From Gammaproteobacteria bacterium (GTDB lineage Bacteria > Pseudomonadota > Gammaproteobacteria > Pseudomonadales > Pseudohongiellaceae), in contig JAURWS010000013.1 of the NCBI GenBank assembly GCA_030654835.1, positions 1-64,000 of the forward strand: a stretch of DNA of 64,000 nt. Direction: 5' to 3'. Of the stretch, positions 14-11,549 are shown piece by piece. The notes beneath the pieces were generated by a model. That model was not told the origin of the DNA, ran no database searches, and saw only the letters and a program-made list of their open reading frames with translations. Every line of letters begins with the position of its first letter. Position 1 is the first letter of the stretch. The translations under genes and the position numbers were made by a program.

Positions 14-1260
14 GAAACACCCCCACGGGCGTGGGGAAGACAATTCAGCCTGAGTCCCAAGCTCCATGAAGTCGGAAACACCCCCACGGGCGTGGGGAAG
101 ACGCGTCATAGGTGACGGTCTGCGAGCCATACGGGGAAACACCCCCACGGGCGTGGGGAAGACTGACCGACTTTTAAGCGTAGACCCTTTCTGGAAGAAA
201 CACCCCCACGGGCGTGGGGAAGACGATTCAAAGATAGAAGTTTCCACTGACGACAGGGAAACACCCCCACGGGCGTGGGGAAGACGCCAACACACAGACC
301 AAGAAAACGAACGATCAGGAAACACCCCCACGGGCGTGGGGAAGACGTCTGGCGAGTACACGACGCGCCCGCTGGTGAAGAAACACCCCCACGGGCGTGG
401 GGAAGACCCGCAACCTGAAGCTGCTGGCAAAGTCGATGGAGAAACACCCCCACGGGCGTGGGGAAGACGATCACGTTTGGTCGAAAGCCAGCGCAGTGCT
501 AGAAACACCCCCACGGGCGTGGGGAAGACCTTTCGGCGCTCAGACAGTCGCTGACACTAAAAGAAACACCCCCACGGGCGTGGGGAAGACCGGAAAGAAT
601 TGGAAGGAATTCGGGAGCCTGTAGAAACACCCCCACGGGCGTGGGGAAGACTGCGCGCCATATGACCGCCTGCCAAAGGAGATAGAAACACCCCCACGGG
701 CGTGGGGAAGACCTCACCGCTGAGAGGTTGCCAAGGTGCAGCGTGGAAACACCCCCACGGGCGTGGGGAAGACAGATCGACTCGCTGATGAAAAACCAAG
801 GGCAGAGAAACACCCCCACGGGCGTGGGGAAGACTTCATATGCTCCATGAAATTCTGGAAGGTGCGAGAAACACCCCCACGGGCGTGGGGAAGACGACAC
901 CATTAGGGCGCTTAACAGTCAGTGTCAGGAAACACCCCCACGGGCGTGGGGAAGACGCACTGCTGGCTGTGGGCGGAGATACAGCTTAGGAAACACCCCC
1001 ACGGGCGTGGGGAAGACGTCAGCTCTCCCGCGATAATGGCGACAGCAAAGAAACACCCCCACGGGCGTGGGGAAGACCGTCTGGGATGATGAATTCCTGG
1101 GTGGCAGCTAGAAACACCCCCACGGGCGTGGGGAAGACCTGAAGGCAGACATCGAAAACGGCGACATGGAGGAAACACCCCCACGGGCGTGGGGAAGACG
1201 CGCATCGAGCGCGGGAGCCTTGCGAAACATCAGAAACACCCCCACGGGCGTGGGGAAGAC
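14..1260 (-). CRISPR. Type I-E CRISPR array: 21 repeats, 20 complete spacers, truncated at the left window edge
   Basis: Repeat GAAACACCCCCACGGGCGTGGGGAAGAC (minus-strand reading GTCTTCCCCACGCCCGTGGGGGTGTTTC) starts at 14,75,136,197,258,319,380,441,502,563,624,685,746,807,868,929,990,1050,1111,1172,1233. Repeats read as identical; spacers are 33 bp except 1018..1049 (32 bp). Internal CCCCACG-GG-CGTGGGG stem. Array sits just beyond cas2. Confidence 0.99.
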
Positions 1261-7206: not shown

Positions 7207-9786
7207 TCATTTTTTCTTCGCCACATATCCCTGGGTAGCGTTGTAGGAGAGTTGGTACTTGTCATTGACAGGTTCTCCAGCCAGCCCGACCAAACTTTCG
7301 TCATCCGCTACCAGCGCGATGCGCAGCATGACGCTTTCCTCATAATATTCAGGTTTTCCCAAGTAAAAGTAGTCGCCTAGCCAGGTAATCTGCTCTCTGA
7401 TTATTGGTTTTGGAGCTAGGTGCTCAGCCACTTTCAAAGTGCTTTGAGTCAGACTGGCACTGGTCTCTCGCCAACGTTGACGAGTCATGGAGCGGCCATT
7501 GTGCGGAATCAGCATTCTCTCACCACTTAGGAAAGTTACCACCGTTCCGTGGTTCTTCCTGTCAGGTTGATAGGCGCGAATCAGCAGTACTTCGGTAGTT
7601 TCTATCTCGCTGTGCCGAGTTTGAGCGTTCTCCTCGGACGGAGTAATCCCATTTCTCGACAAGCCGATCATTGCGAACCGTTCAAGCTTGCTGCGCGTTT
7701 TCTCCAATTGATGAAAATGTTTCGCCATATCGGCGCTTTCTACCTGCTTGGCATAGGTTGCTTCGATCAACTCGCGAATCTGCCCTGGCAGTCTTACTTG
7801 TGCGAGGTTTTGCCAAACAGCGAGGCTCCGGCACAGGACGTAAGGCGCATATACTTTGGCGCTTGCACCAAAGGCCAGTTCAGGATTTGCGATACCTGAA
7901 TCCAGATTTGGAGAGAGTATCCATGCTTCGCGCTGGGCAGAGGAGGGGCGTTGTGTTTCTGAGTGACGCCATAAGCGGCCCATCCGTTGCAGAAGCATAT
8001 CGGTGGGGGCGATACGGCTGACCAGAAAGTCGGCATCAATATCCAGAGACTGCTCCAGCACTTGCGTTCCTACGAGTATGCGACCCTGTTGCCTTCGTGT
8101 TTCTGCTCCGGCTTTTCCATAATGCGTCACCCAGACGTTTTCATTGCTGGCTCGATCCATTTTTGTAAAGCGTGAGTGCAGTAATCCACAGCTGACATTC
8201 AGGCCTTGAGCGTTGGCGGAAAGGCGCCTGAAAATTTCCTGAGCTTCATTGACAGTGTTTTCTATCCACAAGACTTGCTGGCCTGCCTCTGCGCGGATCA
8301 AAGCACCTTCTATGGCATCGGCATCTTGATGATGAGTAATGGAGACAAACGCATCTGGAATAGACGTTACGTCGATCTCAGAAAGCTCACTGGTGTTCGG
8401 CAATGCTGTAATTAGTGGATAAGCAGTTGATGTTGACTTTATGTCGAGTAGTTTGTTTCGGCGCTCTTGAGTCAACGTCGCACTCAAGATGATGACGGTG
8501 CATTGTAGTTGCCGCAGCGCTTTAACCAGTTCGTCCAGGATGGTGCCGGTAAAACTGTCATAGGAATGTACCTCGTCCAGGATGACCACTTTTCCGGCCA
8601 ATCCGAATGTTCTGACGAAACCATGTTTGACGTTCATGACGGCCATCAATGCTTGATCCACCGTGCCCACCGCAAACGGAGCCAGAATGCCGCGTTTTCC
8701 TTGTGCAAACCACGCCCCGCCAGGGTTGCCTTCTTCCCCCATCTCAAATTTTAGCCAAGCGTTGCCGTGTACGAGCAAAGCCTTTTTGTGTAATGACTCG
8801 TCAGCTAGGATTCTGTTTAGAAATGCGTTGACGCGTTCGTGAATTTTGTCGGAAGTGAGCTGTGTTGGCAGGGCAAAATAAATGCCCGTGGCCAATTTTT
8901 TCTCCAGCAGTTGATAGGCAGCGTAAAGAGCCGCTTCTGTCTTTCCTAGGCCCATCGGAGCTTCAAGAACATATATACCAGCTTGCGTCGTGGCTTCTAT
9001 CAGTTTGAGCTGGGTTTCGCGTGGAGGAAAATCAGCAATGCCGTCACTGAATACTTCGCTGAAGCTCAAGCCTGGGATTACTGTTGGATGGACATATCCG
9101 GCATTGTCCAACGCTTGCTCGATTCTCGGACGCCAATCACTGCTGGGGTCTTCGAACAGAGAGCCAGATCCAATCCAATCAGAAACAGTGGTCAGACCGG
9201 CGAGCACCCGTGCCTGCAGTCCGTTTCTTACGACGGGAAAGTTCTCAGTGCCCAAGCATTCTCTTAATTGCGCGAGTAATTCTAGTCTTTGATCCTGCCA
9301 GGTTTTTGCACCAAAGACAGCGCTCGACCCAGTGTACACTGCCAAGTTGGGTGAAAATCCATGGTGCTGCCCTAGAATTTCAGCGACGAATGAACCTGGG
9401 TTGAGTGTGTCGAAAGTTGCTTGACTGACTCCACCATGGCCACCCCATAGTTTTTCACTTTCCGCGTTGAACTCCTTCAATGAGGAGAGAACCTGCTCGT
9501 CTTTAATAGAGAGGGCACTGTAAATTTTCTTCTGAAAAGTGGGGCTCACTTTCCCAATATCATGTGCTGCCGCAATTAACTCTGATCCTGCGGGAAACAA
9601 TTCTGTGCGAAGCCAATCAGGCATGCGAGAGATCATCGCACGCGCGACTTCGCCAACTATCTGGCAATGATTTAGAACCAAGCGCCCTGGCAGAACAGTG
9701 CCGTCAGATTTCTTAAATGACTTGGCGAGGCACTGATCCAATGGGATCGGTGGCAGGCTGGTGTTCTTTGGGGCAGGTACTCGCAT
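7207..9786 (-). CDS. cas3: Cas3 HD nuclease/helicase
   Basis: HD motif AAHDIGKVSPTFQKK; helicase motifs GLGKTEAAL, DEVHSYD, SATLT, QRMGRLWRH. Confidence 0.97.
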   Translation of the reverse strand: MRVPAPKNTSLPPIPLDQCLAKSFKKSDGTVLPGRLVLNHCQIVGEVARAMISRMPDWLRTELFPAGSELIAAAHDIGKVSPTFQKKIYSALSIKDEQVLSSLKEFNAESEKLWGGHGGVSQATFDTLNPGSFVAEILGQHHGFSPNLAVYTGSSAVFGAKTWQDQRLELLAQLRECLGTENFPVVRNGLQARVLAGLTTVSDWIGSGSLFEDPSSDWRPRIEQALDNAGYVHPTVIPGLSFSEVFSDGIADFPPRETQLKLIEATTQAGIYVLEAPMGLGKTEAALYAAYQLLEKKLATGIYFALPTQLTSDKIHERVNAFLNRILADESLHKKALLVHGNAWLKFEMGEEGNPGGAWFAQGKRGILAPFAVGTVDQALMAVMNVKHGFVRTFGLAGKVVILDEVHSYDSFTGTILDELVKALRQLQCTVIILSATLTQERRNKLLDIKSTSTAYPLITALPNTSELSEIDVTSIPDAFVSITHHQDADAIEGALIRAEAGQQVLWIENTVNEAQEIFRRLSANAQGLNVSCGLLHSRFTKMDRASNENVWVTHYGKAGAETRRQQGRILVGTQVLEQSLDIDADFLVSRIAPTDMLLQRMGRLWRHSETQRPSSAQREAWILSPNLDSGIANPELAFGASAKVYAPYVLCRSLAVWQNLAQVRLPGQIRELIEATYAKQVESADMAKHFHQLEKTRSKLERFAMIGLSRNGITPSEENAQTRHSEIETTEVLLIRAYQPDRKNHGTVVTFLSGERMLIPHNGRSMTRQRWRETSASLTQSTLKVAEHLAPKPIIREQITWLGDYFYLGKPEYYEESVMLRIALVADDESLVGLAGEPVNDKYQLSYNATQGYVAKKK

Positions 9787-9834: not shown

Positions 9835-10065
9835 AACTGGTGACAAGCTGTCACCAGTTGACCTACCCTCGGTAGCCTTGATCTCAGCGGTTAGCACCGC
9901 TCGTACTCAGCATCGCAGACCCTCGGTAGTTAGGAATGCAGTTGGTTACGCTTTGTAACCAACTGCCAGCAATCTATATGTCCGCGCTTCAGTCGGTGAC
10001 AATCCGTCACCGACTACCCGTTTTGGCCCTTTCTCAAGCAACCGGTATCAATCTGTAACCAGTTG
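9835..10065. promoter_or_regulatory. Cluster of phased inverted repeats upstream of cas3
   Basis: Dyads at 9835..9859 (AACTGGTGAC-AAGCT-GTCACCAGTT), 9886..9901 (AGCGGT-TAGC-ACCGCT), 9938..9966 (GCAGTTGGTTAC-GCTTT-GTAACCAACTGC), 9991..10015 (AGTCGGTGAC-AATCC-GTCACCGACT), 10039..10065 (CAACCGGTATC-AATCT-GTAACCAGTTG, imperfect). Centres about 47-58 bp apart. Confidence 0.75.
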
Positions 10066-10148: not shown

Positions 10149-11117
10149 TCACCCGCCTCGAAACCCCGCGACGCCCGCCTTCAATCTTTCCAATACACTT
10201 GCCCTCAACCCCTCCGGCCCCTCCACCACCACGTCCGGCACATACCGCATGATGTCCCTGACCAGCTCGCGGTCATCGCCATACGGAAACTGCAGCACAT
10301 ACTCCTCTCCATCCCATCGCCCTTGCTGCTGCGGATGCCAGGTTTGTCTCGACACTTCACCGGCGACGTTTCCGCGGAAACGTAATTTGGCGGTGTGCTC
10401 CGGTTTGCCGGCGAAGATGCCGTAGCTGCGCGAGAAGTGCGCGTCGAGTTCTGCGGCCGAAACCGCTTGGGCCGGGGTGTCGGTGAGGGTGACTTTTTCC
10501 ATGCGGGCCAGCATGAACTGGCGCAGCGTGCGCCGGGTGTGGCACCAGGCATCGAGGTACCAGTTGTCGCGGTAATAGACGAGGTCCTGCGGGCTGAGGG
10601 TGCGCTGGGTGGTGGCGCCTTTGTAGTCAGTGTAGCGAACGGTGAGTTGCCTTCCGCGCAGCAGGGCATCGCTGACGCGCAGATAGATATCGTTGGGAAC
10701 CGTACGGTGGCCGATGGGCAGCACCTTGATGCGACTCATCAGGACGTCAGGTGAAATGTTGCGGGCCTTGAGCAATTTGTGGATGCCCTTCTCGACAATC
10801 TTCAGTTCATCGCTGAGCAGGCCGTTGCCGAACCCCTGCAGCATGTGCAGCAACAGGGCCATGGACTGCAGTTCCTCTGCGGTCAGCCACAGGCCGGGGA
10901 GGAGGTGCTTCTCTTCTGGCGGACAGGTGTAGGCCCAGCCTTTGTATTCTTCGTTGTAGTCGATGGGGGCGAGGGTGAAGTCCTGCAGCACGTCGATCAG
11001 GCGGCGAGCGCTCTTCTGTGTGCAATCGAGTTTGTCGGCCAGGGTGCGCAGGCTGATGGGGTGGCGGTGAGTCATGAAAAGCTGAAACAGCTTTTGAATG
11101 CGATCCAGCTTGTCCAT
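10149..11117 (-). CDS. HTH-WYL-WCX domain transcriptional regulator
   Basis: N-terminal HTH (LRTLADKLDCTQKSARRLIDVLQ), WYL core (LVYYRDNWYLDAWCHTRRTLRQFMLARMEKV), C-terminal WCX-like region. Confidence 0.93.
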   Translation of the reverse strand: MDKLDRIQKLFQLFMTHRHPISLRTLADKLDCTQKSARRLIDVLQDFTLAPIDYNEEYKGWAYTCPPEEKHLLPGLWLTAEELQSMALLLHMLQGFGNGLLSDELKIVEKGIHKLLKARNISPDVLMSRIKVLPIGHRTVPNDIYLRVSDALLRGRQLTVRYTDYKGATTQRTLSPQDLVYYRDNWYLDAWCHTRRTLRQFMLARMEKVTLTDTPAQAVSAAELDAHFSRSYGIFAGKPEHTAKLRFRGNVAGEVSRQTWHPQQQGRWDGEEYVLQFPYGDDRELVRDIMRYVPDVVVEGPEGLRASVLERLKAGVAGFRGG

Positions 11118-11318: not shown

Positions 11319-11549
11319 ATGGAGCGGGTAGGCGTCTTTAAAAGCAGTAAAGGTCAGATGATCCGTCTACCCAAAGCGGTTGCCTTGCCGGACGATGTAA
11401 AGGAAGTCGATATTCTTGTGCTGGGGCGATCACGGTTGATTGCACCTGCAGGGGAGGTTTGGGACAGCTGGTTCGAGGGCGATGGTGTTTCCGATGACTT
11501 CATGGCGGATCGCGAGCAATCTGCTGGGCAAACGCGAGAACTGTTGTAG
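11319..11549 (+). CDS. VapB-like (AbrB/SpoVT-fold) antitoxin, no adjacent toxin
   Basis: MERVGVFKSSKGQMIRLPKAVALPDDVKEVDILVLGRSRLIAP...WDSWF is a typical VapB architecture. Confidence 0.8.
   Translation: MERVGVFKSSKGQMIRLPKAVALPDDVKEVDILVLGRSRLIAPAGEVWDSWFEGDGVSDDFMADREQSAGQTRELL

Follow-up and report, generated by a model that had tools for sequence, protein, structure and literature searches.

A palindrome array between a WYL regulator gene and cas3, related to coding palindromes of Bro-N genes and a candidate operator for cas transcription

The gap between a WYL regulator gene (wyl) and cas3 in a 64,000-nucleotide stretch of DNA, analysed here as a whole and called the window, contains an array of four copies (dyads A, B, C and E) of CARYYGGTKAC-N5-GTMACCRRYTG, the consensus of a palindrome found in Bro-N coding sequences, together with one weaker, unrelated dyad (Table 1). 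Judged by their arms, the array dyads and the bro palindromes are related and make up one family. We tentatively read the array as a set of operator sites that control cas transcription at the DNA level and are most likely bound by dimers of the neighbouring WYL protein, a reading that we place somewhat short of an even chance. Copies of a dispersed palindrome family, lying at a defence hotspot, would have become an operator array for cas; WYL dimers would bind the dyads and so control cas transcription; and this switch of wyl and dyads would have been retained in front of differing cas modules, type I-E in the window and type II with Cas9 in a sister species (G005).

Table 1. Features of the wyl-cas3 region and its surroundings, in window coordinates.
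Feature	Position	Strand	Description	Remarks
WYL regulator	10149..11117	-	HTH_11 + WYL + WCX, 322 aa	Pfam; PADLOC CAS-associated WYL (PDLC01457)
cas3	7207..9786	-	first gene of type I-E operon cas3-cse1-cse2-cas6e/cas7e-cas5e-cas1e	
CRISPR array	21-1260			
vapB-like antitoxin sequence	11344..11547	+	87% aa identity to that of G012	truncated at WYL-side island edge
Dyad A	10039..10065	.	imperfect, CAACCGGTATC-aatct-GTAACCAGTTG	first after wyl
Dyad B	9991..10015	.	AGTCGGTGAC-aatcc-GTCACCGACT	left arm and core identical in G005
Dyad C	9938..9966	.	GCAGTTGGTTAC-gcttt-GTAACCAACTGC	CAGTTGGTTAC..ACCAACTG kept in G005
Weak dyad D	9886..9901	.	AGCGGT-TAGC-ACCGCT	not GGTKAC class; absent from G005
Dyad E	9835..9859	.	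AACTGGTGACA-agc-TGTCACCAGTT	cas side of swap; absent from G005
11-bp direct repeat, copy 1	9865..9875	.	ACCCTCGGTAG	
11-bp direct repeat, copy 2	9919..9929	.	ACCCTCGGTAG	

The four dyads with their shared core, the weaker fifth and the 11-bp repeat were all found where an initial annotation of this DNA had placed them, and its siting of the array between a WYL regulator and cas3 was borne out by a 362-bp gap flanked by the two co-oriented genes. The window holds three perfect palindromes whose arms measure 10 bp or more, with 3-8 bp between them, all in the wyl-cas3 gap, as against 0-1 in each of ten first-order Markov copies of the window. Outside the window the source genome was checked by pattern searches: GGTKAC-N5-GTMACC has three occurrences in its 3.84 Mb, all in the wyl-cas gap, and the reversed control pattern has 0. 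The changes between copies that the annotation had described as matched on both arms are real, both in the core (GGTGAC/GTCACC, GGTTAC/GTAACC) and in the outer pairs (AGTCGG/CCGACT, AGTTGG/CCAACT, AACTGG/CCAGTT). A phasing of five helical turns, which it had also proposed, is unsupported in its strict form: the centre-to-centre distances are 46.5, 58.5, 51 and 49 bp (4.4, 5.6, 4.9 and 4.7 turns), and the series of about 50 bp, conserved in G005 (52 and 49 bp), is formed by three dyads only.

Two identities for the dyads were rejected: a generic dispersed repeat of the source genome, since the strict core occurs at the wyl-cas locus only, and matS (GTGACRNYGTCAC), whose spacer is 3, compared with 5 in the dyads. 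The source genome holds one related copy of the GGCTAC class at C30:3930, namely AGTTGGCTAC-acatt-GTAGCCAACT upstream of a MazF/PemK toxin gene (G000:C30:3930-3954, L106); the same class was also found inside a bro gene (L249). Read as CTACCGAGGGT, the direct repeat looks like one half of a different palindrome class, CTACCTAGGGACA, which is present in L131 and, imperfectly, in the source genome's own bro gene (L246).

The WYL protein, whose closest solved relatives are PafBC, DeoR-type WYL, CapW and BrxR, is an HTH-WYL-WCX protein adjoining cas genes and as such belongs to the CRISPR-associated WYL family. Its island occupies a defence hotspot with a superoxide dismutase (SOD) gene on one side and an agcS-like gene on the other; these two genes are direct neighbours or lie close together in most species of the genus. 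In the close relative G012, whose sequence in this flank has 94% identity to that of the window, vapB and two dyads lie between the SOD and agcS-like genes, with no WYL gene, and both dyads prove to be bro genes in decay (GSQLVSICNRLELLAADGKKQLT, E=6e-6). Because of this content at the same site, we take the island to sit at a hotspot where toxin-antitoxin, bro and CRISPR genes turn over. The wyl-cas3 gap showed no recognisable promoter of the sigma-70 type and no terminator, and an Rfam scan of the window returned one tRNA only.

The wyl-dyad arrangement is conserved in one sister species, G005, where dyads A-C come after wyl (83% aa identity) in unchanged order and at distances of 52 and 49 bp. 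Downstream of them stand cas9-cas1-cas2 (type II) and a different repeat array, in place of the type I-E genes of the window, and the difference between the two loci starts within the array, past dyad C. Identity between window and G005 is 67/87 (77%) in the dyads against 67/137 (49%) in the linkers (p=2.7e-5), and function is therefore favoured. Dyad A has changed jointly on both arms, from GGTTAC/GATACC to GGTGAC/GTCACC (CAACCGGTGAC-aattg-GTCACCAGTTG in G005), while the arms of dyads B and C are less symmetrical there. Since wyl plus dyads are 78% identical at the DNA level, about as much as the flanking genes (73-81%), they were probably inherited with the species, the cas module having been exchanged. 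Dyad E adjoins cas3 and has no counterpart in G005, and therefore goes with the type I-E side.

We then considered the relatives of the WYL gene, found in 92/369 genomes of the class at E<=1e-35. Those examined precede type I-C, I-F, I-E-like or type II cas genes, or other genes. No array follows wyl at the roughly 35 more distant loci checked, and a universal WYL operator array was accordingly rejected. At 17 CRISPR-linked loci, window and G005 included, a motif search just past wyl returned a single dyad whose arms vary (GGCTCA-gcttt-TGAGCC or TGGTCA-cgttt-TGACC, for instance), with a score of 100 (59-65 in shuffles). Within the 75 bp that follow wyl, a dyad (p<=0.05) was present at 5/15 other CRISPR-linked loci and at 0/18 not seen to be CRISPR-linked. 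This supports the dyad after wyl as a putative WYL operator, although the arms and dyad number of the window differ from those of the relatives, whose spacing is also slightly different. The single variable dyads with a T-rich spacer that recur in the first 75 bp past CRISPR-linked wyl genes (L259-L284) form a candidate operator family.

The proposal of the initial annotation that the array may serve as operators for the WYL protein has partial support. Conservation in G005, where both wyl and dyads are kept, the advantage of dyads over linkers, the BrxR-like geometry and the single dyads at CRISPR-linked relatives argue for it; the distant relatives without array, the G012 dyads without WYL gene and the occurrence of the palindrome in many phyla, mostly within Bro-N genes, argue against a feature that is general or specific to WYL.

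Scanning 85,462 genomes for AGTYGGTKAC-N5-GTMACCRACT gave at least 116 matching stretches in many phyla, where by our own estimate about 4 are expected by chance. The annotation had held that the same dyads scattered at unrelated loci would tell against its reading; such scatter exists across genomes, but not within the source genome. Most of the matches listed fall within the reading frames of Bro-N genes (PADLOC phage-defence candidate PDC-S13), in which the palindrome encodes E/Q-L/S-V-T-x-C-N/H-Q/R-L-K; dyad E has the same reading on its minus strand (QLVTACHQLKV). Dyads without a bro gene, some of which are bro remnants, occur among the matches listed as a set of five in a Flavobacteriales genome (L148) and as pairs or triplets in L153, L216 and L222. 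Phage and plasmid matches are few and partly bro, and none was found in E. coli.

Bro-N and ORF6N genes were then collected by protein similarity alone, the palindrome not being required. A palindrome stands at the same place in 18/27 Bro-N genes, compared with 2.7% on random synonymous recoding, and in 20/22 ORF6N genes, compared with 2.1%, the counts being not fully independent because the sampled genomes are partly related. The ORF6N palindromes (L306-L326, L328; L065:9156-9188) are perfect or near-perfect, with arms of 9-16 bp, a 3-nt loop and a position at about codon 60-66, and their arm sequences are many and different. Bro-N arms are likewise diverse yet pairing (CAACTGTACGA/TCGTACAGTTG, CAGTTGTCCGA/TCGGACAACTG, AGTTGTCGACA/TGTCGACAACT, CAGTTGGCTACA/TGTAGCCAACTG), and the encoded residues vary with them (QLYEKIVQLK, QLSEKIGQLK, ELSTICRQLK, QLATKCSQLK). 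The many arm classes speak against one inherited sequence, and because the residues change along with the arms, the protein cannot explain the pairing. Bro-N genes L239-L249 and L288-L305 show the fixed-place palindrome with compensating changes that alter the protein. A literature search by palindrome sequence, peptide and keyword returned nothing on coding palindromes, which have apparently not been described before in these genes. It is possible, though we lean towards doubting it, that Bro-N and ORF6N genes carry an obligatory coding palindrome that serves them as an inbuilt site for binding or recombination, and that copies of it, the array among them, were co-opted as CRISPR or toxin-antitoxin control sites or as exchange joints. 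Genes of both kinds are also found within cas operons (L065:7961-9355, L254:1107-1706), placed between cas1 and cas3f in type I-F and, with overlapping starts and stops, between cas4 and cas1 in type I-C.

The main rival to a WYL operator array is inert bro debris: the dyads would be leftovers of bro genes or palindromes that repeatedly inserted in the hotspot and are now idle. The two dyads of G012, at the same site, have plainly such an origin, bro and ORF6N genes do occur within cas operons (L065, L254), and dyad E reads LRSRLPRVG-QLVTACHQLKV, which is bro-like (E=0.001, mostly from the palindrome itself). Once the palindromes are masked, however, no bro similarity is left in the window gap; genes with a single palindrome do not explain four dyads about 50 bp apart; and the sequence, order and spacing of A-C have held better than the linkers since the species split. 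We consider this explanation unlikely, but not by far.

Another binder, be it a Bro-N, an ORF6N or a host regulator, might read dyads and bro palindromes alike, the defence genes then forming one regulon. The same arms indeed occur within bro genes and upstream of them (L164, L236, G050) as well as near AbiE, ParE, HicA and MazF genes, with a constant GGTNAC core and outer bases that vary as A-R-Y-Y. None of the bro genes of the source genome, however, belongs to the GGTKAC class, and its own Bro-N and ORF6N genes have different arm sequences. We regard such a binder as distinctly improbable.

GGTKAC dyads flank AbiEi/AbiEii toxin-antitoxin pairs on both sides in L159, L227 and L185, and such dyads on both sides of AbiE pairs were seen in Legionella and a Chitinophagaceae genome. 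That dyads generally delimit toxin-antitoxin cassettes, as seen at several loci, is a lead. These flanking dyads, and the start of the I-E/type II divergence inside the array, would fit palindromes that act as a seam for the exchange of defence cassettes. Yet one exchange event only is at hand, no recombinase was identified and no empty-site or excision product was seen. We regard recombination joints as very improbable.

The structured RNA that the initial annotation had offered as an alternative, with the dyads as transcribed hairpins in the cas3 leader, is possible, but nothing that was found favours it, and it is the reading we credit least: the minus strand folds well (z=-5.4), as any perfect dyads trivially would, the dyads have neither an Rfam match nor a terminator, and on the sense strand of bro genes C.A mismatches outnumber T.G by 37 to one, the reverse of the tolerance of an mRNA hairpin, a count that rests on one position, where an amino-acid preference is possible.

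If the WYL operator reading holds, the array would be a concrete control region for a WYL-CRISPR switch and would bear on the regulation of CRISPR operons. The coding palindromes of Bro-N and ORF6N genes are strong features in themselves and may explain how these common, poorly understood genes work. Rickettsia palindromic elements and REP/BIME are dispersed short palindromes, some of them inside reading frames. The Rickettsia and REP elements are scattered insertions in one genus, unlike the coding palindromes, which keep one fixed position in two gene families across many phyla and have covarying arms. PDC-S13 shares its palindrome with the array, there in coding sequence, whereas the window gap encodes no bro gene. 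The WYL protein of the window resembles CRISPR-associated WYL proteins (PDLC01457) in domain make-up and in its position before cas operons, but most of these relatives have no array, and where a dyad occurs it is single and its arms are different. The BrxR operator is built as an inverted repeat of 11 bp around a 5-bp spacer, and each BrxR box, a single dyad, lies ahead of brxR or brxA (Picton et al. 2022, PMC9122601). The array is unlike BrxR and R-BOX, of BREX and other islands, in its four dyads between wyl and cas3, in arms shared with bro genes across phyla and in a binding that we infer; it is like them in combining a WYL gene beside defence genes with inverted repeats of about 11 bp, a 5-bp spacer and more than one site per island.
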